From Flavobacteriaceae bacterium CG_4_10_14_3_um_filter_33_47 (GTDB lineage Bacteria; Bacteroidota; Bacteroidia; Flavobacteriales; Flavobacteriaceae), in assembly GCA_002784145.1 (NCBI GenBank), contig PFKE01000103.1, forward strand, positions 1 through 36,126: 36,126 nt of DNA, in the 5' to 3' direction. The number at the start of each line of letters is the position of its first letter. Position 1 is the stretch's first letter. The notes beneath the pieces were generated by a model that did no database searches, was not told the DNA's origin, and worked only from the letters and a program-made list of their open reading frames with translations. Of the stretch, positions 5,432 through 31,318 are shown one piece after another. Both the position numbers and the translations under genes were made by a program.

Positions 5432-6450
5432 TGGAAAGTACAAGAACACTCAGAGACAAAATATTCCTTGTTTTAAAAGGATTAGGTATGGGAGCCGCTA
5501 ATAAAGTTCCTGGTGTTTCTGGTGGTGTGGTAGCTTTTGTTGCCGGATTTTATGAAGAGTTTATTTATTCCTTGAGAAAAGTAAACGGAAAAGCCTTTAA
5601 ACTGCTCATTAATGGCCGTTTTAATAGCTTCTACAACTACATTAATGGTAAGTTTTTAAGCTTGCTGTTTTTTGGAATGATCGTCAGCTATTTTAGTGTT
5701 TCTAAAGTTTTAGATTATCTAATAAAACACTATGAACTCTATGTGTGGAGCGTTTTCTTTGGAATGATTATTGGTTCTATTTATTACATTAATAAAGACT
5801 TTAAAGACTGGAACTATAAAACTTACATGACATTATTTGTAGGAATTAGCTTAGGTGTTGGAATTAGCTTTTTAAGTCCGGCAAAAGAGAATGATAATTT
5901 ATGGTTTGTGTTTTTTTGTGGCATTATAAGTGTGTCTGGAATGACGCTTCCCGGATTTTCAGGCTCTTTTATTCTCATTCTTTTAGGCAATTATGTGCTG
6001 CTTTTAGTGGAATCTGTAAATGCCTTGTATGATACATTTTTCGATTTAATTAAAGGCGATTTTAGTTTTTTCCAAAATGCAGTACGTACAAGAATGTTAA
6101 AAGTGTTGGCCGTTTTCACCTTAGGCTCCATAACAGGATTGGTCACGTTTTCAAATGTATTAAGCTATATTTTAAAACATTATAAAAGCATAACCATCTC
6201 AGCCATTATTGGTTTTATTATTGGCTCGCTTGGTGTTGTTTGGCCATGGAAAAAAACAATTTTTAAACTTAATGAACAAGGTGAATTCCTTTTTGATTCT
6301 ACCGGCACCAAAGTTGTAGAAAATTACAGAAGATATCTTCCAGAATTAAATATGGAAACATATTACGCAATCATTTTTATCTTTGTTGGAATTGCTATTG
6401 TACTTGCACTTGAAATATATGGACAAAAAACAGGAAAAAGAAAAGCATAA
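5431..6450 (+). CDS. DUF368 membrane protein, PopT-type undecaprenyl-phosphate transporter (copy 2)
   Basis: A 339-residue paralogue of the preceding gene, sharing its topology and both motifs (GAANKVPGVSGGVVAF near the start, LPGFSGSFILILLGNY in the middle). It starts inside the stop codon of copy 1 (TAATG). The two differ clearly: copy 2 has Asn-Lys where copy 1 has Asp-Ala before VPGVSGG, and its C-terminal part is about 30 residues longer. This suggests an old duplication with functional divergence, not a recent one. The family role is undecaprenyl-phosphate recycling at the inner membrane; whether both copies do the same job cannot be told. The aroE start lies within the last 32 bases of this gene. 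Confidence 0.83.
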   Translation: MESTRTLRDKIFLVLKGLGMGAANKVPGVSGGVVAFVAGFYEEFIYSLRKVNGKAFKLLINGRFNSFYNYINGKFLSLLFFGMIVSYFSVSKVLDYLIKHYELYVWSVFFGMIIGSIYYINKDFKDWNYKTYMTLFVGISLGVGISFLSPAKENDNLWFVFFCGIISVSGMTLPGFSGSFILILLGNYVLLLVESVNALYDTFFDLIKGDFSFFQNAVRTRMLKVLAVFTLGSITGLVTFSNVLSYILKHYKSITISAIIGFIIGSLGVVWPWKKTIFKLNEQGEFLFDSTGTKVVENYRRYLPELNMETYYAIIFIFVGIAIVLALEIYGQKTGKRKA

Positions 6451-7183
6451 ACTTGGTTTAATAGGCAGAAACATCTCATATTCATTTTCTAAATTATTTT
6501 TCACTAATAAATTTAAAAAGGAACATATAGATCATGTTTCTTATGAAAACTTTGATATTGAATCGATAGACTTGCTACCTTCAATCTTAGAAAACACGCC
6601 TAATTTAAGAGGATTTAACGTTACCATTCCTTATAAAGAAGTCATTATTCCGTATTTAGATAAATTAAATAAAAAAGCCGCAGACATTGGAGCTATTAAC
6701 ACAGTAAAAATTACCAAAAAAAATAAGCTGGTTGGTTATAATACCGATTGTTATGGCTTTAAAAATTCAATAAAAAAGCACCTTAAACCACATCACAAAA
6801 AAGCGTTGATTTTAGGAACCGGTGGCGCCAGCAAAGCTATTGTTTACAGCTTAAAAGAATTAAACATAGACTATCATTATGTTTCAAGACACCTAAAAAA
6901 AGGCGTCGATTATACCTATGAAACTTTAACCAATGAGGTTATTAAACAACATCAAATTATCATAAACTGCACCCCAATTGGCACCTTTCCTAATGTAGAA
7001 GATTGCCCGAACATTCCATTTAATGCGGTAAATGAAACGCACATTTTATATGATTTAATCTATAATCCTGAAGAAACTACGTTTTTAAAATTAGGTAAAG
7101 AGCAAGGCGCAAAAACCATTAATGGTTTAAAAATGCTAAAGCTTCAAGCAAAAAAAGCTTGGTCTATATGGAATTTAGAATAA
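6419..7183 (+). CDS. aroE: Shikimate dehydrogenase
   Basis: A 254-residue NADP-dependent shikimate dehydrogenase, the fourth enzyme of the chorismate pathway, reducing 3-dehydroshikimate. Seen in sequence: substrate-binding NISYSFSK near the start, NVTIPYKE with the catalytic lysine, NTDCYGF with the catalytic aspartate, the nucleotide-binding GTGGASKA loop, NCTPIG and the C-terminal NGLKMLKLQAKKAW. The frame is open further upstream, but the chosen ATG at 6419 gives the normal N-terminus; it overlaps the end of the DUF368 gene by 32 bases, so translation is probably coupled. A second shikimate-pathway gene (aroQ) lies elsewhere in the window at 34434-34859. Confidence 0.93.
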   Translation: MDKKQEKEKHKLGLIGRNISYSFSKLFFTNKFKKEHIDHVSYENFDIESIDLLPSILENTPNLRGFNVTIPYKEVIIPYLDKLNKKAADIGAINTVKITKKNKLVGYNTDCYGFKNSIKKHLKPHHKKALILGTGGASKAIVYSLKELNIDYHYVSRHLKKGVDYTYETLTNEVIKQHQIIINCTPIGTFPNVEDCPNIPFNAVNETHILYDLIYNPEETTFLKLGKEQGAKTINGLKMLKLQAKKAWSIWNLE

Positions 7184-7218
7184 AAACGGCTATTTAAATA
7201 TTAAAATCACCTCTCCTT

Positions 7219-7249
7219 TTTGTAATTACTGTAGTTGTTACTATATTTA
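7219..7249 (+). promoter_or_regulatory. Bacteroidota-type promoter for the DUF349 gene
   Basis: TTTG (7219-7222), a 19-base spacer and TATATTTA (7242-7249) fit the Bacteroidota consensus TTTG-N19-TAnnTTTG with one mismatch in the last base. The expected transcript start is about 35 bases before the ATG at 7289. The spacer begins with the palindrome GTAATTAC (7222-7229) and ends with TTAC, which could be an operator but is short. Confidence 0.5.
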
Positions 7250-7288
7250 AACAATTAAGTAATAATACTGAACCTAAACATTTATAAA

Positions 7289-9346
7289 ATGTCTGAGCTA
7301 GAAAACCTGCAAGAAGCAGATGGAAACCAAGAAATTAAGCCTAAAAAAATCAAGTCTAAAGAAAAATCTGCTGAAGATACTGCTGCGGAACCTAATCACG
7401 TTGAATCTACACCAGAATCCAATACTCAAGAAGTTGATGCATTAGACCAGTCAACGCATCAATCCAAAGAAGATTTAAAGGAAACTGAAGCATCAAAAGT
7501 AATTGAAGAACCAAAAGAAACAGAAAGCACAAAACCTGTTTTGGATGAACAGGATGACCTCTTAAATGAAATCGATGAATCCAATGCTGAAGATGCCGAA
7601 GACGATGGCAACAAAGAAAGACATATTATAGAAGTAAAGGATTACGATACCATGTCGTTAGAAGCCTTGACCGCGGAGCTTGAAAAATTGGTTAAAAGCG
7701 AAAAAGTTCAAGCCATTAAAAATCATGTTGAGGAAATAAACAATGAATTTAAAACAAAATTTCAATCGTTACTAGACGAAAAAAAGGAAGAATTTTTATC
7801 GGATGGCGGTAACGAAATAGACTTCTATTATTCAAGTCCTATACAAAATCGCTTTAAAACCACTTACAAGGCGTATAAAAATAAACTCTATGAACATTAC
7901 AAGAGCTTAGAGCAAAACTTAAAACAAAACTTAGAAGACAAACTTGACATTATTGAAGAGTTAAAAGGACTCATTAATGTTGAAGAAAATATAAACACTA
8001 CCTATAAACATTTCAAGGAATTACAAGAACGATGGCGAAACACAGGACCAATTCCTAGAGATAAATACAACAATGCCTGGAATAGTTATCACCACCATGT
8101 AGAAATGTTTTACGACTTTTTGCACCTTAACAGAGAGCTTAGAGATTTAGACTTCAAGCATAATTTAGAAAAGAAGTTAATGATTATTGAACGTGCAGAA
8201 GAATTATCAAAAGATAATGATGCGCTGCATTCATTTAGAGAACTTCAAGAACTCCATAAAATGTGGAAAGAAGAATTAGGTCCGGTTGCAAGAGAACAAA
8301 GAGAAGATATTTGGAACCGGTTTAAAAACGCCACAAAAATAATCAATGAAAAGCGTCAAAAATTTTACCAAGAAATTGATAAAGTTTACGAAAAGAATCT
8401 CGAGAAAAAACAAGACATCATTCAAGCCATTCAAGCCATAAGCACAGAAGATATTACCTCACACAGTATTTGGCAAAAGAAAATAAAAGATATCGATGCC
8501 CTTAGAGAGTCTTTCTTTAATGCAGGAAAAGTTCCTGTTAAAGTTAATGAAGAAACTTGGGCGCATTTTAAAGATGCTGTAAGAGCTTTTAACAAAAGAA
8601 AAAATTTATTTTATAAAGGATTAAAAAAAGAACAGTATAAAAATCTTCAAAAAAAATTAGAACTCATAAAAATTGCTGAAGACAACAAAAACAACGAAGA
8701 TATTCCTACAACCATGGCACTCATGAAAAAAATTCAGAGTGATTGGAAAAAGATTGGCCACGTTCCAAGAAAAGATAGCGATAAAATATGGAAACAATTT
8801 AAATCGGCCTGTAATTTCTTCTTTGACAAACTTCACGCTTCTAAAAACGCAGCAAACAATCTTGAAGCTGAGGCCTACACAAAAAAAATGACGCTTTTAG
8901 ATTCCATGAAGAACTTAACATTGACTCATGATAAAGAAAAAGATTTAGAAATTATTAAAAATACCATTACCCAATGGAAAGAAATAGGTCGAGTTCCAAA
9001 CGATAAACGCTTTATTGAAGGCAAATTCAATAAAAACTTAGATGAACTGTTTTCAAAACTGAAAATGGATAAAAATGACATTGAACTTATTAAGTTTGAG
9101 AACAAGCTAGAAGTTCTTAGTAATGATGATGATAATAGAAATCTTGATAACGAAAGAGCTTTTATTCGTAAGAAAATTGATGAGCTTAAAAGCCAGATTA
9201 ATCAATTAGAAAATAATCTGCAGTTTTTCACCAATGTTGATGATGATAATCCTTTAGTAAAAGAAGTTCATAAAAATATTAAAGGCCATAAAGATTCTTT
9301 AAAGCTTTGGAAGACAAAACTCAGTAAAATCAAAGAGCTTTACTAA
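7289..9346 (+). CDS. DUF349 repeat protein
   Basis: A 685-residue, highly charged, largely helical protein. The first ~115 residues are a low-complexity Glu/Asp/Ser/Thr-rich stretch that is likely disordered. From about residue 170 to 620 there are several DUF349 units, each with a pattern like W...G.VPR...D.IW..FK.A...F (for example GPIPRDKYNNAWNSYHHH, GPVAREQREDIWNRF, GHVPRKDSDKIWKQF, GRVPNDKRFIEGKF). The last ~60 residues form a coiled coil. There is no signal peptide, so it should be cytoplasmic. DUF349 proteins are widespread in Flavobacteria, but I know of no settled function. It stands alone, with its own probable promoter just upstream. Confidence 0.85.
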   Translation: MSELENLQEADGNQEIKPKKIKSKEKSAEDTAAEPNHVESTPESNTQEVDALDQSTHQSKEDLKETEASKVIEEPKETESTKPVLDEQDDLLNEIDESNAEDAEDDGNKERHIIEVKDYDTMSLEALTAELEKLVKSEKVQAIKNHVEEINNEFKTKFQSLLDEKKEEFLSDGGNEIDFYYSSPIQNRFKTTYKAYKNKLYEHYKSLEQNLKQNLEDKLDIIEELKGLINVEENINTTYKHFKELQERWRNTGPIPRDKYNNAWNSYHHHVEMFYDFLHLNRELRDLDFKHNLEKKLMIIERAEELSKDNDALHSFRELQELHKMWKEELGPVAREQREDIWNRFKNATKIINEKRQKFYQEIDKVYEKNLEKKQDIIQAIQAISTEDITSHSIWQKKIKDIDALRESFFNAGKVPVKVNEETWAHFKDAVRAFNKRKNLFYKGLKKEQYKNLQKKLELIKIAEDNKNNEDIPTTMALMKKIQSDWKKIGHVPRKDSDKIWKQFKSACNFFFDKLHASKNAANNLEAEAYTKKMTLLDSMKNLTLTHDKEKDLEIIKNTITQWKEIGRVPNDKRFIEGKFNKNLDELFSKLKMDKNDIELIKFENKLEVLSNDDDNRNLDNERAFIRKKIDELKSQINQLENNLQFFTNVDDDNPLVKEVHKNIKGHKDSLKLWKTKLSKIKELY

Positions 9347-25115: not shown

Positions 25116-26588
25116 TTACCTAGAATAATTAGGAGACTCATTGGTAATGGTAACATCATGTGGATGACTTTCATTAATTCCACTGGCCGTAATTTTTACA
25201 AATTGCCCGTTTTCTTTCAAAGCTTCAATATCTTTAGCACCACAATAGCCCATACCTGCACGTAACCCACCAATAAATTGATGGATGCTTTCGTATAAAT
25301 CGCCTTTATAAGGCACACGACCAACAATACCTTCTGGAACCAGTTTCTTTATATCGTCTTCAACATCCTGAAAATAACGGTCTTTACTGCCTTGTTTCAT
25401 GGCTTCAACAGAACCCATACCACGATATGATTTAAATTTTCTTCCTTCGTAAATGATGGTTTCTCCTGGAGATTCTTTGGTTCCTGCCAATAACGAGCCT
25501 AACATAACACTATCTGCACCAGCAGCAATGGCTTTAGGAATATCGCCTGTATAACGAATACCTCCATCTGCAATCACTGGAACACCAGAACCTTTGATGG
25601 CTGCGGCCACTTCTAAAACGGCAGAAAACTGAGGAAAACCAACACCAGCAATAACTCGTGTTGTACAAATAGAACCAGGGCCAATACCAACTTTAACGGC
25701 ATCTGCACCAGCTTCAACCAGATATTTTGCAGCGGCACCTGTAGCAATGTTGCCAACAATAACGTCGAGCGTTGGAAATTTGGATTTAATGTCTTTTAAA
25801 ACAGAAACGACACTTTTGGTATGTCCGTGAGCCGTATCAATCACTACTGCATCCACACCTGCATTTACTAAAGCTTCGGCGCGTTCTGGAGCATCGGCCG
25901 TAACACCAATAGCCGCAGCCACACGCAAGCGTCCAAAAGCATCTTTATTAGCCATTGGTTTTAGTTTAAGTTTGGTAATATCTCTAAAGGTAATTAATCC
26001 AGAAAGCTTATAATGTTCGTCAACAATCAGGAGTTTTTCAATTTTAAATTGTTGTAGAATTTTTTCAGCATCTTTTAATGACGTTCCAACAGAGGCTGTC
26101 ACTAAATTTTTGCTGGTCATAACCTCAACGATAGGCCGTTTGTTGTCATGCTCAAAACGTAAATCGCGATTGGTCACTATTCCTTTTAAGGTTCTGTGTT
26201 CATCTACGATAGGGATCCCTCCTATACCATGCTCTGCCATACTTTGCTTAGCATCTTTAACCGTTGCGGTTAAAGGTAAGGTTACAGGATCTATAATCAT
26301 ACCACTTTCGGCACGCTTTACTTTTCTAACTTTTAAAGCCTGTGCTTCAATAGTCATGTTTTTATGCAATACACCAATGCCGCCTTCTTGCGCCATAGCA
26401 ATGGCCATTTTACTTTCAGTAACCGTATCCATAGCGGCTGAAATGATAGGCACATTAATGGTGATGTTGCGTGTAAATTTTGTTTGAATATTTACTTCCC
26501 TTGGGAGTACTTCTGAAAAGGCTGGAACTAAAAGGACGTCATCGTAGGTTAATCCTTCTCCTACTATTTTGTTTTGATGTGAAATCAT
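25116..26588 (-). CDS. guaB: IMP dehydrogenase
   Basis: A 490-residue IMP dehydrogenase, which oxidises IMP to XMP in the first committed step of GMP synthesis. It has the usual TIM barrel interrupted by two CBS domains (about 95-205). Visible motifs: [19 protein letters not shown] at the N-terminus, the catalytic loop [13 protein letters not shown] with Cys308, the phosphate site [15 protein letters not shown], the flap [12 protein letters not shown] and [14 protein letters not shown]. Length is standard. It appears monocistronic, with a consensus -7 element and an inverted repeat in its short leader. Confidence 0.97.
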
Positions 26589-26698: not shown

Positions 26699-27187
26699 TT
26701 ATGGTTTTTGAATCAACTGTTTTAAAATAATAATGGTGGAAAATAAAAAAGACAAGGTCATTAATGTTCCAGAAATCATCACAACATACTTCATCCAGAT
26801 TGTGCCAGTCCATAAAAAATATAACCCTCCAAAAGTTAGGATAACTGAGACCAATGGTTCAATCATTAAAAAATTTTTAAAAGGTCTATTTAGTTTGGTA
26901 ATGGACACGATAAGTGCGAGTAGAAAGAAAATAACAGACATGGATAATACATGCGAATGCACTAAAGACAACATTTCTTTTTCACTTTTTTTAAACTTCA
27001 TAATGTCAGCCTCTTCATCATGTTCATTTCCTAAATATTGTTCTTCAATACCGTTTGGATTTGCCGAAGAGGTTTCACCCACAAACAACAATCCTGAAAA
27101 AAAACCTATGCTTAAAACTATCATAAAAACGCCAATTAATAGCTTAATATTTTTTGGTAGTAAAAAAATGTATCCGTTTAATTGCAT
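26699..27187 (-). CDS. Four-helix membrane protein with an H-S-H motif
   Basis: A 162-residue protein of unknown family. It has four membrane segments (about 15-37, 78-97, 105-126 and 130-157). A charged, probably periplasmic loop of about 40 residues between the first two contains NEHDEEADIMKFKKSEKE. Two histidines (His77 and His79, LVHSHVLSMSVIFF) sit at the mouth of helix 2, a position where haem or metal could bind. The start codon abuts the stop of the FMN-binding gene with no gap, so translation is coupled. It is the last gene of the porin/FMN-bind operon and may be the inner-membrane electron donor for the flavoprotein, which is an inference. Confidence 0.72.
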   Translation of the reverse strand: MQLNGYIFLLPKNIKLLIGVFMIVLSIGFFSGLLFVGETSSANPNGIEEQYLGNEHDEEADIMKFKKSEKEMLSLVHSHVLSMSVIFFLLALIVSITKLNRPFKNFLMIEPLVSVILTFGGLYFLWTGTIWMKYVVMISGTLMTLSFLFSTIIILKQLIQKP

Positions 27188-27715
27188 CTATAAAATATTT
27201 TTTGAATGAAGTATTTTTAATGATTTAAGTAAATTATTGATAGCCTCTGTAAACGACCTTACCGATATGGTTGCCCCTGAAATTGCTATAATATTATCGC
27301 CATATTTCAAGTCGTCTGTCTGGGTTTTTCCAATGAATTGTTTTAGCCAACGTTTACTTCCTATTTCACCGCCGTATTCTTCTCGGTAAAATAAAACTTT
27401 TGTTTTTATGATAATCAAATCAGAATCCAATAAAACCATATAATCAAATAGTGCTGTTTTACTGGCAGCCTGAGAAATATATACATAAGCTAAAAACTTA
27501 TTATCAGATTCAATTTTAAACAAATTATCTTCTCCAAATCTTGATGCTAATGTTTGTTCTATTTCAATGGGAATAGAAACACTTATTAAATTAAAATTTA
27601 CTACACTAAATGTTTCGGTAATTTCTTTGTTTACTTTTTTTTCGATGTTTTTTGGTAACCCAAATGCAAGAAATGAAAAGCCAACAAGTATTAATATAAT
27701 ATGTTTAAATCTCAT
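27188..27715 (-). CDS. FMN-binding domain protein (covalent flavin type)
   Basis: A 175-residue exported or membrane-anchored protein with an N-terminal hydrophobic segment (about 5-20). The C-terminal half resembles the FMN_bind domain of RnfG/NqrC/NosR-type proteins: a G-[KS]-x-x-W region (GSKRWLKQFIGKT), then KYGDNIIAISGATISVRS, whose SGAT motif (residues 146-149) marks Thr149 as the likely residue flavinylated by ApbE. No apbE gene is visible in the window. It is encoded between an outer-membrane porin and a small membrane protein with which it directly abuts. It probably acts as a periplasmic one-flavin electron carrier; the redox partner is unknown. Confidence 0.8.
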   Translation of the reverse strand: MRFKHIILILVGFSFLAFGLPKNIEKKVNKEITETFSVVNFNLISVSIPIEIEQTLASRFGEDNLFKIESDNKFLAYVYISQAASKTALFDYMVLLDSDLIIIKTKVLFYREEYGGEIGSKRWLKQFIGKTQTDDLKYGDNIIAISGATISVRSFTEAINNLLKSLKILHSKNIL

Positions 27716-27796
27716 AAGTTAAAATTAAGTATTAAATTTAAATAGTATGATAAGGACTTAAAAAATCCTTATCACACTTGTATTTTTCTGTCGCTT

Positions 27797-28975
27797 TTAA
27801 AACCAAACTCCCAAGCCAAAGTTGAGTCTGTTTTGAACATTTGATCCTGACAAAGCATTATCTCTAAATTGATAGTCACCTTTAAAAACAACCCCTGGTG
27901 CAATATGATAGCTTAAACCCATAGTAACATCTGTTCTGTTAAAAGCATCGTTTCTTAACAAAACACCATCAGTATCTGCATGAGTATCATAGGTTTCGTA
28001 TCTTAAAAAAGCAAAGAGGCGTTGTTCGTTTGATTGAGGTAAGAGATTATAGGCGCCTTCAACATACCAACCTTCTAAGGCACTTCCTAAATCATTACCC
28101 GTTAAATTATTGTAAGCTTCTGTGCCAGATAAAGAACCATGCACATATTGACCTCTGGCTGTAAATCTTTGATAGGCATAACGAGCATCTAAGCCAAACA
28201 TAGAAATACCAATGTTGGCGCCATTGATGGATTCTACATCATCTTCTGCTTGTGTATCTCCAAAATATCCAGACAATCCCAATCTAAGACCGGGCAAGCC
28301 ATAATAATCAAATTTAACCGATAATGTTGGACTGTCAATAGTAGATTGTATCCCTTTTTGTCGTCCACCTCTTAAAGCATTAGACCCCTTTAATGCCCCA
28401 TTAACCCCTCCAGAACCGTCAAAACTTGTAGATTTAAAGCCATTAAACACATACGCTTGATAACCAAGAGAAAGATCATTAAACCGTCCAGCAACACCAA
28501 ACCCTAATTCTCTCCAAGTGGTAGGAACAATAACATTATCCAATCCTGGTCTTTCAACACCATTAAAGGTTGTTGGTTCGTGAAATTCATTAATAATACC
28601 AAAAGGCACTAACATTAACCCACCGCGCAAACTAACATTTGAACCCACAGCATAATTCACAAAAGCTTGTTCTATAAAAACTTCTTCTACATGTTCAAAC
28701 TCAACTTCGGTGACAAACTGTGTTTTATCATTAAACTTGTACCCAAAAAGTAACACTAAACGCTGAACATCTAATTCACCATTGTCACCCTCGGGTTGAT
28801 TGTAGGTTAATTCTCCATAGGCTCCTACGGTTACTGACTGACCATAGTTTCCTGAAAGAATTCTTTGTGAAGCATTTAACTGTTGTTGAGGATTAAACGT
28901 AATGGAATGCTGCATGGTTTGTGCAGCTACAAATGCACTGATGAAAATTGCTAAAATTGTTGTTGTAGTTTTCAT
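27797..28975 (-). CDS. Outer-membrane porin-like beta-barrel protein
   Basis: A 392-residue protein with a signal peptide (MKTTTTILAIFISAFVAAQT) and a body of alternating amphipathic strands typical of outer-membrane barrels (for example GKFNDKTQF-like turns, LRGGLMLVPFGIINEFHEPT, VFKGDYQFRD), ending in the C-terminal phenylalanine expected by the BAM complex (LNFGLGVWF). It looks like the porins of the phosphate-selective O/P or similar Bacteroidota groups, but the substrate cannot be told. It is the first gene of an operon with the FMN-binding and four-helix membrane proteins. It has a textbook promoter overlapped by a perfect inverted repeat. Confidence 0.85.
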   Translation of the reverse strand: MKTTTTILAIFISAFVAAQTMQHSITFNPQQQLNASQRILSGNYGQSVTVGAYGELTYNQPEGDNGELDVQRLVLLFGYKFNDKTQFVTEVEFEHVEEVFIEQAFVNYAVGSNVSLRGGLMLVPFGIINEFHEPTTFNGVERPGLDNVIVPTTWRELGFGVAGRFNDLSLGYQAYVFNGFKSTSFDGSGGVNGALKGSNALRGGRQKGIQSTIDSPTLSVKFDYYGLPGLRLGLSGYFGDTQAEDDVESINGANIGISMFGLDARYAYQRFTARGQYVHGSLSGTEAYNNLTGNDLGSALEGWYVEGAYNLLPQSNEQRLFAFLRYETYDTHADTDGVLLRNDAFNRTDVTMGLSYHIAPGVVFKGDYQFRDNALSGSNVQNRLNFGLGVWF

Positions 28976-29005
28976 TTATTTTAATTTAGACTAATTATAA
29001 ATAGT

Positions 29006-29033
29006 GTGTTATATTCGACAGCAAATATAACAC
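29006..29033. promoter_or_regulatory. Perfect 10-bp inverted repeat over the porin promoter (candidate operator)
   Basis: GTGTTATATT (29006-29015), an 8-base spacer and AATATAACAC (29024-29033) form a perfect 10-bp inverted repeat. It overlaps the -7 box (29022-29029) and the predicted transcription start, the position expected of a repressor site. It does not match a Fur box or a CRP/FNR site that I know. Confidence 0.65.
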
Positions 29034-29052
29034 TGAAAATTAAATTTCCAAA
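29022..29052 (-). promoter_or_regulatory. Consensus Bacteroidota promoter of the porin operon
   Basis: On the minus strand TTTG (29052-29049), a spacer of exactly 19 bases and TATATTTG (29029-29022) match the Bacteroidota consensus TTTG-N19-TAnnTTTG without mismatch. The predicted leader is about 42 bases. A 10-bp inverted repeat overlaps the -7 box. Confidence 0.8.
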
Positions 29053-29081
29053 GCTTATTTAGAATTATTTTAAATAATTTC

Positions 29082-29945
29082 TTAATGAAAAACGCTAAAT
29101 ATTTTAGTAGCTTCATTAAAAGCACTTTCAAAACTTAGTGCATCCAAATTGTTTAGTTTTTTTGAAGTAAAAAAAGACAATAATTTTTCTGTAGGCATGT
29201 TACCTGTTAGCGCATTGGTAGCCATAGGACAGCCTCCAAAACCTTGAATAGCACCATCAAAACGATTGCATCCCGCTTTAAAAGCACTATCCACTTTTTC
29301 AAACCAAGTGTTTGGTGTTGTGTGTAAATGCGCCCCAAACTCAATATTTGGATATAAAGGAATTAAATTTGAAAACAAATAATAAATGTTATCAGCATTT
29401 GAACTTCCTATGGTATCACTTAATGACAAAATTTTAACGCCCATTTTACTCAAACGCTCGGTCCACTCGCCCACTATATCAACATTCCAAGGGTCACCAT
29501 ATGGATTGCCAAATCCCATTGAAATATACACAACAACTTGTTTTTGTGATGCATCTGCAATATTTAAAATACCTTCTAAAGTAACAACCGATTGCGCGAT
29601 GGATTTATGGGTATTACGCATTTGAAAATTTTCGGAAATAGAAAAAGGAAACCCTAAATAATCCACTTGTTCATGCTTTGATGCATCTTCGGCGCCTCTT
29701 TCATTGGCAACAATGGCTAATAATTTACTTTTTGTTTTGCTTAAATCCAACATAGATAAAACTGCCGAGGTATCTGCCATTTGTGGAATGGCTTTGGGAG
29801 AGACAAAACTGCCAACATCTATGGTATCAAATCCTACGCGCAATAAGGATTGAATATACTGAACTTTATTCTTTGTTGGAATAAAACTTTTGATGCCTTG
29901 CATGGCATCTCTTGGACATTCTATAATCTTAATTTTGCTTGACAT
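29082..29945 (-). CDS. Hydroxymethylglutaryl-CoA lyase
   Basis: A 287-residue enzyme of the DRE-TIM barrel family that splits HMG-CoA into acetoacetate and acetyl-CoA, the last step of leucine degradation. Visible features: the catalytic ECPRDAMQG near the N-terminus (Arg12-Asp13), the metal-binding AHLHTTPNTW, and the mobile active-site loop IQGFGGCPMATNALTGN with its conserved cysteine. Length is usual. It seems monocistronic; no other leucine-degradation gene is adjacent. The downstream 106-base gap holds the porin promoter, whose -33 box lies 30 bases past this stop. Confidence 0.92.
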   Translation of the reverse strand: MSSKIKIIECPRDAMQGIKSFIPTKNKVQYIQSLLRVGFDTIDVGSFVSPKAIPQMADTSAVLSMLDLSKTKSKLLAIVANERGAEDASKHEQVDYLGFPFSISENFQMRNTHKSIAQSVVTLEGILNIADASQKQVVVYISMGFGNPYGDPWNVDIVGEWTERLSKMGVKILSLSDTIGSSNADNIYYLFSNLIPLYPNIEFGAHLHTTPNTWFEKVDSAFKAGCNRFDGAIQGFGGCPMATNALTGNMPTEKLLSFFTSKKLNNLDALSFESAFNEATKIFSVFH

Positions 29946-30136
29946 TTATACTTGAAATAGACTCGATAAAAATAATATTATTGAAACAGAAAACATAACA
30001 TCTTTAGTATTATTAAATTTTGGGGGTTATCTTTTCATTTCAGGTTAAACAATCATAACGAATAAATTAACACATCAACGTAAATATTATTAAGAAAACC
30101 TGATTGCTTATACATTTAACTAAATATTTCGCCCCA

Positions 30137-31318
30137 ATGAAAAATTTCTTCCATCGTATAAAATCTAGTCTTTTTTCGATTCTTTTATTGATTTCTTATT
30201 ATGTTTCATCACAAAACAATGTAGAACCTGTTTGTGGAACCGTTACTAGCAAGGAAACCCTTCATTATTTTAATACCATTAAACCTCAGTTAAAAAACTT
30301 TCAATTGCAGTTTAATACCTCAAAATCTACTATAAACAGTTCAAAATCCATAACAAAAAATTATATTCCTATTAAGGCTCATGTTATACGATTATCAAAT
30401 GGTGAAGGTGGTTTAACGGAATACGATCTAAACAATGCTATTGCAGACATAAACCAAACATTTGCAAATGCTTACATGGAATTTTTTCTGTGTAAAGACA
30501 TTAATTATATTGATAGTGATCGTTATTTTCATTTTAAATCGTCTGAAGAAAAAACTTTGGTGGAAGCTAACTATGAAACTGGCGTCATTAATATATATTT
30601 TACGGATCATATTAAAAATTCGTCTGACGAAAGCATTTGTGGCTACACATACAACAAATCAAACTACGATGTTATAATGATGCAGAATGATTGTGCCACC
30701 AACAATTCTTCATTAGCGCATGAACTAGGTCATTATTTTTCTTTAATACATACGCATGGCGCAGACAACCTTTGTAAAACAAAAGAATTGGTTAACAGCA
30801 GTAATTGTAGTAGTGAAGGCGATCAAATTTGTGATACGCCAGCCGACCCAAAACTAACCTCAACAAACATCAACAACTTTTGCAGATATATTGGAGACGA
30901 AACAGATGTTAATGGTGAATTGTTTAATCCGGATACTAAAAATATCATGTCGTATTCCATGAAAGGATGCCGTTCCCATTTTTCGCAGGAGCAATTTTCC
31001 AGAATGTATGCCTATTATATGACAGAGAAAAGCTATTTGGCATGTGGAGATGCTTCAGATATTGATGAAATTGTTGAAGTATCAAATGCTTCAGACATTA
31101 AAATATATCCTAACCCTATTTCGGGAGATGTTCTTTATATTAAATCCAATACGGCTGACACCGAATTTTTTGAAATATCAAATTTAATGGGACAGGTATT
31201 TGTGTCTGGCAAAGTAACGAGCAATGAACCTGTTCATGTAAACCATTTATCTTCTGGTACTTATTTATTGACCATTAAAAGTAAGAGTTCAAAGATTTCA
31301 AAAAGGCTTATAAAATAA
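30137..31318 (+). CDS. Secreted M43-type metalloprotease with T9SS type A sorting domain
   Basis: A 393-residue secreted protease. The ATG at 30137 gives a signal peptide (MKNFFHRIKSSLFSILLLISYYVSSQ); an upstream TTG at 30104 would lengthen it without need. The zinc site is HELGHYFSLIH (His195, Glu196, His199, His205), the extended HExxHxxxxxH of metzincins, with a Met-turn candidate NIMSYSMKGC further on, which fits the pappalysin/cytophagalysin family M43. Several cysteines (for example DDESICGY and NLCKTKELV regions) may form disulfides. The last ~75 residues (KIYPNPISGDVLYI to the end) are a type A T9SS signal that is removed on secretion. It probably degrades extracellular protein. The stop abuts that of pyrD with no gap. 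Confidence 0.9.
   Translation: MKNFFHRIKSSLFSILLLISYYVSSQNNVEPVCGTVTSKETLHYFNTIKPQLKNFQLQFNTSKSTINSSKSITKNYIPIKAHVIRLSNGEGGLTEYDLNNAIADINQTFANAYMEFFLCKDINYIDSDRYFHFKSSEEKTLVEANYETGVINIYFTDHIKNSSDESICGYTYNKSNYDVIMMQNDCATNNSSLAHELGHYFSLIHTHGADNLCKTKELVNSSNCSSEGDQICDTPADPKLTSTNINNFCRYIGDETDVNGELFNPDTKNIMSYSMKGCRSHFSQEQFSRMYAYYMTEKSYLACGDASDIDEIVEVSNASDIKIYPNPISGDVLYIKSNTADTEFFEISNLMGQVFVSGKVTSNEPVHVNHLSSGTYLLTIKSKSSKISKRLIK

Follow-up and report, generated by a model that had tools for sequence, protein, structure and literature searches.

What is the role of three adjacent genes on the minus strand of a 36,126-nucleotide stretch of DNA from Flavobacteriaceae bacterium CG_4_10_14_3_um_filter_33_47 (contig PFKE01000103.1 of assembly GCA_002784145.1; the whole stretch is hereafter called the window)? 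The genes encode an outer-membrane porin, a protein of the FMN_bind family (FMN, flavin mononucleotide), and a small membrane protein with two closely spaced histidines, termed the HxH protein. A first-pass annotation of the sequence proposed that the three products form a redox chain across the cell envelope. The trio is a real, widespread, and apparently iron-controlled module. It looks like flavinylation-based envelope electron transfer serving iron assimilation, a type of module already known, with a membrane partner of a seemingly new class. Because the genes travel together across relatives and sit behind apparent iron-starvation switches, we favor the reading that the trio is a Fur-repressed reductive iron-assimilation module, to which we assign a probability of roughly two in three.

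A conserved three-gene unit

The unit consists of the following genes, each an open reading frame (ORF).

27797..28975, minus strand: porin, a Porin_O_P outer-membrane barrel of 392 residues, first gene of the unit (ORF and PF07396)
27188..27715, minus strand: FMN_bind protein of 175 residues, with an N-terminal hydrophobic segment and an SGAT motif containing Thr149 (ORF and PF04205)
26699..27187, minus strand: four-helix membrane protein (HSH or HxH protein) of 162 residues, with H77-x-H79 at the start of helix 2 (ORF)

Read along the minus strand, an intergenic region with two palindromic sites is followed by the porin gene, 81 bp, the FMN_bind gene, and the HxH gene. FMN_bind ends at 27188 and HxH starts at 27187, leaving zero gap, which bears out the earlier description of three genes encoded together with the last two abutting. 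The porin matches PF07396 at 34.5 bits (curated cut-off 20.9); its profile found no match in the PDB by sequence.

The comparison of gene neighborhoods suggested by the first-pass annotation reveals strict linkage. In all 110 fetched loci (L007-L116, the window being L007), single porin, FMN_bind, and HxH genes follow one another in this order on the same strand. Of these, 30 came from searching with the HxH protein and 80 from searching with the FMN protein. Some species may be represented in both sets, and in the larger one certain titles give only order or phylum. The window's family was taken as Flavobacteriaceae from names in the 80-locus listing. Across the 80 loci, the median gap between the FMN_bind stop and the HxH start is -1 bp.

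FMN_bind and HxH genes are also present and lost together. The HxH protein is found in 110 of 299 family genomes (93 of the 249 of good quality). The FMN protein, sought with profile A2 at an E value of 1e-15 or better, is found in 108 of the 299, all of them within the 110. The two extra genomes (G075 and G227) retain only HxH remnants with four stops each, and in G099, which was counted in both sets, the FMN_bind and HxH genes are both broken by stops; thus, three of the 110 HxH-bearing genomes hold broken copies. The G099 locus (L208, about 6440-7500) is a joint loss caught in progress, in which both genes have decayed and a Fur-like site of 18.8 bits still stands upstream. In two other genomes, G172 and G229, the sole FMN match is separate from the HxH gene, which is preceded instead by a PepSY_TM gene and a TonB receptor gene, respectively.

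The flavoprotein and ApbE

The FMN_bind protein matches PF04205 at 31.4 bits (cut-off 22), and its structural model matches RnfG/NqrC structures (9eri_G, E 7e-7). It carries the [S/T]GA[S/T] motif of ApbE substrates as SGAT, as the first-pass annotation had recognized. Thr149 is invariant in 110 of 110 near relatives, Gly-Ala-Thr is present in 23 of 23 diverse Bacteroidota sequences, and [STAD]GAT is kept in all 118 FMN ORFs from loci with flanks. In PMC8238504, FMN_bind proteins with [ST]GA[ST] are described as ApbE substrates that carry electrons. Covalent attachment of FMN to Thr149 is predicted for the window's protein.

The window genome has three apbE genes and three FMN_bind genes. The other two FMN_bind genes (L209:6660-7256 and L210:6996-7784) lie in gene runs that, judged by ORF sizes, resemble rnf and nqr operons. 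ApbE occurs in 295 of the 299 family genomes and in all 249 of good quality. The four genomes lacking it have completeness values of 64 to 84%, and FMN_bind and HxH genes occur in two of them (G062 and G161). Because apbE is nearly universal in the family, its presence is necessary but not telling. It is seldom close to the trio: an apbE match falls within the stretch in 4 of the 80 loci from the FMN-protein search, and in two window-family loci the gene lies downstream, directly in L204 and after one ORF in L205. The first-pass annotation had staked its proposal on linkage in other genomes, apbE in the host, and a conserved Thr149, and each of these is found.

Fur-type sites upstream of the porin gene

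The first-pass annotation overlooked the two palindromes ahead of the porin gene, as well as links to iron genes in some relatives. The upstream features are these.

29057..29075, minus strand: Fur-box-like site 1, ATTTAAAATAATTCTAAAT, 82-100 bp upstream of the porin ATG; 21.3 bits, the best in the window
29022..29051, minus strand: putative Bacteroidota promoter, TTG-N19-TATATTTG, between the Fur-like sites (pattern match and reading)
28984..29002, minus strand: Fur-box-like site 2, ATTTATAATTAGTCTAAAT, 9-27 bp upstream of the porin ATG; 20.5 bits, second best

The assignment at 29022-29051 uses what we take to be the Bacteroidota promoter consensus, TTG/TAnnTTTG. An unsupervised word count finds TCTAAATAA in 77 of 78 porin upstream regions, with 1.9 expected. 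The context of this word is the palindrome published as the Riemerella anatipestifer Fur box, ATTTAGAATTATTCTAAAT, a 19-bp element that, according to PMC5609570, has gel-shift support in that organism. Site 1 has one mismatch to the published consensus (plus strand), and the window has two boxes of the Riemerella type within 100 bp of the porin ATG.

Sites were scored with a matrix built from 11 Riemerella sites in a table of PMC5609570, which are independent of the trio loci. The third-best site in the window reaches 10.1 bits, and 100 first-order resamplings gave a maximum of 16.6 and a mean of 12.8. Of the 80 loci, 77 were scorable after dropping regions that were too short, overlapped by another ORF, or assigned to other labeled genes. 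Their porin upstream regions have a median of 19.1 bits and a minimum of 10.0, versus a median of 4.9 for 433 other upstream regions, and 59 of the 77 exceed the 99th percentile of the latter. The pattern ATTTARAATWATTCTAAAT, which was written after the sites had been seen, has four matches in the window with three or fewer mismatches (the two sites on both strands), with 1.05 expected, and 1 of 100 shuffles reaches four. Its single zero-mismatch match in the 2.94-Mb window genome is site 1. The host genome encodes a Fur protein.

Fairly good Fur-like sites also occur elsewhere in the window genome: one at the start of a frame weakly matching a succinate dehydrogenase membrane subunit (L215, below cut-off), and one before a gene for a NUBPL/Mrp-type iron-sulfur protein (L222).

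Relatives in other Bacteroidota families

Beyond the family, profile A1 matches 39 of 395 phylum genomes, and the broader profile A4 matches 19 of 195 genomes in the class of G641. In 29 loci with stretches of about 3.5 kb (L117-L145, the window included), FMN_bind adjoins HxH in every case, and a porin is detectable in 24. Twenty longer loci of other families (L146-L165) all contain HxH and FMN_bind genes; 19 have a porin (L161 weakly), and eight have apbE. No other neighbor cluster appears in more than 6 of the 20, and on this basis the unit is the trio itself.

The best Fur-type site of each of these 20 stretches scores 14 to 26 bits. In 12 loci it lies at the porin gene, falling within the called ORF close to its start in L158, and in five (L146, L148, L154, L155, and L156) it precedes a different gene that heads the run. 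In L160 it precedes fur, and in L165 the site at the porin ranks third.

In some relatives the trio is linked to genes of iron or heme uptake. L148 carries on one strand fur (PF01475), feoA (PF04023), feoB (PF02421, TIGR00437), a gap of ~560 bp, then porin, FMN_bind, HxH, and apbE; the gap may encode a 54-residue FeoB-associated protein (PF12669, below cut-off). In three genomes of one family (L151, L156, and L193), a gene for a solute-binding protein stands immediately ahead of the porin gene. The L151 product matches the periplasmic iron-binding protein 3wae (E 5e-91), and the L156 and L193 copies are solute-binding proteins by Pfam and are alike to it. These proteins are presumably of the ferric-binding type (FbpA); the nearest NCBIfam models for the L151 and L193 copies, thiamine- and phosphonate-binding proteins, score below cut-off. 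In L160, fur lies two genes ahead of the trio.

L146 and L203 have genes for HmuY, a TonB receptor, DUF6607, FMN_bind, and HxH. A second, paralogous FMN_bind gene adjoins DUF6607 in L196-L202, and it is the sole FMN match in L196 (G172) and L197 (G229). Altogether, FMN_bind adjoins DUF6607 in nine of nine loci (L196-L203 and L146), as judged by a profile trained on five of them and confirmed by Pfam in five. A TonB receptor gene is present in all nine, and HmuY was confirmed in the three tested (L146, L198, and L203). In L070, a TonB receptor gene and DUF6607 are found past the trio, at a distance of about 1.3 kb or more. The FMN_bind and DUF6607 genes are followed in at least L198-L201 and L203 by a gene for a conserved Cys-containing protein of 116-121 residues, and the L198 and L203 copies have no Pfam match.

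The Fur-type sites, together with the feoAB, FbpA, and HmuY/TonB links, suggest iron assimilation rather than a generic outer-membrane electron chain.

The HxH membrane protein

The first-pass annotation described a four-helix protein with two histidines at a helix mouth and no recognizable family, and both points stand. An AlphaFold model (mean predicted local distance difference test score 84.7) has four long helices, at residues 12-37, 69-95, 101-127, and 132-159, with His77 and His79 located 8 and 10 residues into helix 2. By the positive-inside rule, this end of helix 2 is predicted to face the periplasm. Nothing scores above a Pfam cut-off, and there is no NCBIfam match. The nearest Pfam models are Orbi_NS1 (12 bits, cut-off 27) and DUF2871 (PF11070; 12.6 bits, cut-off 27.4), and the protein does not belong to the latter, which it resembles only locally, at residues 68-118 (E 0.17). 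None of the NapH-, MsrQ-, PepSY-, DsbD-, or NQR/RNF-like or DUF4405 models matches it in a Pfam search that listed three families up to E 10. Its profile gave one chance-level match in the PDB by sequence (ELAV-like protein 1, E 0.25). Relatives beyond Bacteroidota were sought on plasmids only, where tblastn returned just three weak Nostoc matches (29% of the query, E 1 to 5). The protein may resemble a proteobacterial membrane-protein family.

Conservation centers on the histidine pair. His77 and His79 are invariant in 110 of 110 near-relative sequences, and HxH is kept in 113 of 113 HxH ORFs from loci with flanks. Across diverse Bacteroidota, His77, His79, Gly53, Phe87, and Pro111 are invariant in 31 of 31 sequences, from which near relatives (L117-L120) and duplicates had been removed, and also in 23 of 23. 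The middle Ser varies; thus, the conserved motif is HxH, not the H-S-H first described.

The suggestion that His77 and His79 line a heme pocket found no backing. The two residues are unlikely to share one heme in a monomer because they lie two residues apart on one helix, and there is no second invariant histidine. Met63 was considered as a heme ligand and rejected because the diverse sequences do not conserve it, although 109 of 110 near relatives do. The histidines may instead serve in a dimer or bind a quinone or another metal.

The HxH protein might instead be a membrane anchor, an assembly factor, or an iron or heme permease that works with the flavoprotein and carries no electrons. Such a role would fit a protein with no known cofactor family or clear fold match. 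However, it would not readily account for two invariant histidines at a periplasmic helix end in 31 of 31 diverse members, or for the almost invariable co-occurrence of this protein with a flavoprotein for which the unit offers no other evident source of electrons, and we regard it as the least probable of the alternatives considered here.

A deep lineage with cytochromes

Seven loci of a deep Bacteroidota class (L186-L191 and L161) contain a porin-like gene, HxH, and FMN_bind. The set has gaps: the L186 FMN_bind and L189 HxH ORFs were filtered out, the contig start truncates L187, and the L161 FMN_bind frame is broken. One cluster of one-heme (CXXCH) proteins is represented in five of the seven (L161, L187, L188, L189, and L191), and ApbE in three (L188 by Pfam, L190 and L191 by profile). 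An EB_dh-domain protein with one CxxxCH motif is encoded between the porin-like and HxH genes in two (L161:5794-6699 and L190:3620-4840). In four of the seven, a gene divergent from the porin-like, HxH, and FMN_bind genes encodes a probable lipoprotein with eight CXXCH motifs. Among nine loci counted, only the following have it.

L186:50-1687, probable lipoprotein with eight CXXCH motifs
L188:5230-6801, probable lipoprotein with eight CXXCH motifs
L189:9382-10923, probable lipoprotein with eight CXXCH motifs
L191:9967-11568, probable lipoprotein with eight CXXCH motifs; above the Pfam cut-off for MtrC/MtrF domains II/IV

No comparable Fur-type site precedes the five deep gene runs with upstream sequence (L186 and L188-L191); L187 and L192 are cut there. 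The deep-lineage loci support a redox role, not an iron role.

These loci invite the view that the trio is an envelope electron conduit, in which electrons from quinol would travel by way of the HxH protein and then the flavin, and would leave the cell at the outer membrane over a path that includes the porin. The eight-CXXCH lipoproteins, including the MtrC/MtrF-like L191 copy, count in favor of such a path. An MtrAB-type conduit has a multiheme cytochrome encoded with a very large barrel, but the window's unit has no CXXCH in any of its three proteins, and its porin is a Porin_O_P protein of 392 residues; MtrB-type barrels are far larger than this. The Fur-type sites and iron-gene linkage also argue against a conduit, which we consider improbable for the window. 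The redox chain proposed in the first-pass annotation stands in part: the unit is conserved, its flavinylation motif is intact, and a redox role fits the cytochrome genes beside the deep-lineage pair, but the porin as an electron carrier is unsupported.

The same loci fit another possibility, in which the flavin carrier replaces a c-type cytochrome under iron starvation. Fur control would then reflect iron replacement rather than uptake, the membrane protein would draw quinol electrons for a periplasmic reductase, and the porin would admit the substrate of that enzyme. This proposal accommodates both the Fur-type sites at the trio and the deep-lineage homologs beside cytochrome genes, and the idea of flavin/cytochrome exchange is raised in PMC8238504. 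However, it leaves the feoAB, FbpA, and HmuY/TonB links unexplained, and no reductase gene was seen to recur with the trio among neighbors, not all of which are annotated. We judge it unlikely, though less so than the conduit.

A model for reductive iron assimilation

In the reductive iron-assimilation reading, the gene order, motif invariance, joint presence and loss, Fur-type sites, and linkage in some relatives are observations, whereas we infer the electron transfer, cofactor, and substrate as follows. Iron limitation would release the promoter, and the porin would admit small ferric complexes to the periplasm. There the FMN_bind protein, flavinylated at Thr149 by ApbE, would reduce Fe(III) or strip it from a carrier. 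The HxH protein would be the dedicated inner-membrane partner of the FMN protein. It has short cytosolic loops and no cytosolic domain, and because of this it most likely oxidizes menaquinol, probably near His77/His79 on the periplasmic side and perhaps through heme b, passing the electrons to the flavin. Fe(II) would enter by a ferrous importer, which may be FeoB in L148 and perhaps Nramp or ZIP in the window host. The host has one Nramp match above cut-off and ZIP matches above cut-off on two contigs, which are candidates only. FeoB is not put forward as the host importer, because the FeoB_N matches there are weak and lie in frames of 205 to 538 residues.

Several observations weigh against this model. 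Fur control of the trio is a prediction that rests on likeness to sites of another genus, a number of them weakly predicted themselves. Nor is the matrix wholly specific: 5 of the 433 other upstream regions score at least 19 bits, one of them preceding an imelysin gene (L082). With three mismatches allowed, ATTTARAATWATTCTAAAT occurs 49 and 45 times genome-wide, hardly more often than its reversed control (44 and 35). In L161, the highest-scoring site (21.6 bits) lies before unrelated genes, with none before the trio. Among the 20 longer loci, five have an identified iron or heme gene adjacent, as do L193 and L203, although not all neighbors are annotated; outside the 20, an iron gene adjoins the trio in one of eight others (L193). 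No clear FeoB was found in the host, where the best match is 53 bits in a 462-residue frame, versus 204 bits for FeoB_N in L148; since the assembly is a 2.94-Mb draft (164 contigs, 97.55% complete), absence is not proved. For the HxH protein, a Foldseek search with the model gave a best E of 0.84, and VIA gave Z scores of at most 8.7, mostly to common helical bundles; since no histidine outside the single HxH pair is invariant, the cofactor is not fixed. Finally, the deep-lineage cytochromes and the lack of a comparable site there imply that iron need not be the ancestral job of the pair.

Flanking genes

Two genes flank the unit in the window.

25116-26588, minus strand: ORF of 490 residues, 110 bp past the HxH gene, IMP dehydrogenase by reading
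29082-29945: HMGL-like gene, upstream of the porin gene

The gene after HxH in L194 is PF00478. A 404-residue ORF at 30104-31318 of the window resembles, by eye, a secreted metalloprotease whose C terminus carries a sorting domain.

Relation to known systems

The iron supply of flavobacteria, many of which are marine, bears on their breakdown of algal carbon. If the proposed role is correct, over a third of the sampled family genomes (110 of 299, including three broken copies) carry an unrecognized reductive iron module. Flavin-based periplasmic electron transfer would gain a new, very small, and directly testable membrane donor, a family with no database name would gain a function, and a role would be suggested for the FMN proteins of TonB/HmuY loci.

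A broader proposal, held a little below even odds, is that flavinylated proteins have in the HxH protein a seventh class of membrane electron donor, and a very small one. Together with the porin, it would form a cytochrome-free ferric reductase that is induced by iron starvation in Flavobacteriaceae. Among deep-branching relatives, this pair of donor and flavoprotein would feed multiheme lipoprotein cytochromes, so that a single core would have been connected to iron uptake as well as to outward electron transfer. None of the literature matches listed describes this gene trio or its HxH protein, although word searches are poorly suited to a protein that has no name, and such clusters may appear in the supplements of PMC8238504.

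According to PMC8238504, flavinylation systems of the NapH-, MsrQ-, PepSY-, DsbD-, and NQR/RNF-like types share with the trio an extracytosolic flavinylated protein, a membrane donor, and ApbE, and several are tied to iron assimilation (PepSY, MsrQ with VIT1, and P19). The trio differs from the systems described there in that its membrane partner has four helices, an HxH pair, and no Pfam model, and in that a porin gene belongs to the unit. DUF4405-like cytochromes, as presented in PMC11334425, resemble the HxH protein in being small and linked to flavinylation, with histidines as their most conserved residues. However, they have six helices and four central histidines, whereas the HxH protein has four helices, a single invariant HxH pair, and no match in Pfam. 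RnfG and NqrC have the same fold and flavinylated-threonine motif as the FMN protein, but the trio includes no other Rnf or Nqr subunit and has a separate membrane partner of its own. Hmu/Hfp heme-uptake loci place a paralogous FMN_bind gene (and, in L203 and L146, HxH too) beside a TonB receptor gene and DUF6607, whereas the window's unit has a Porin_O_P barrel in place of HmuY and the TonB receptor.

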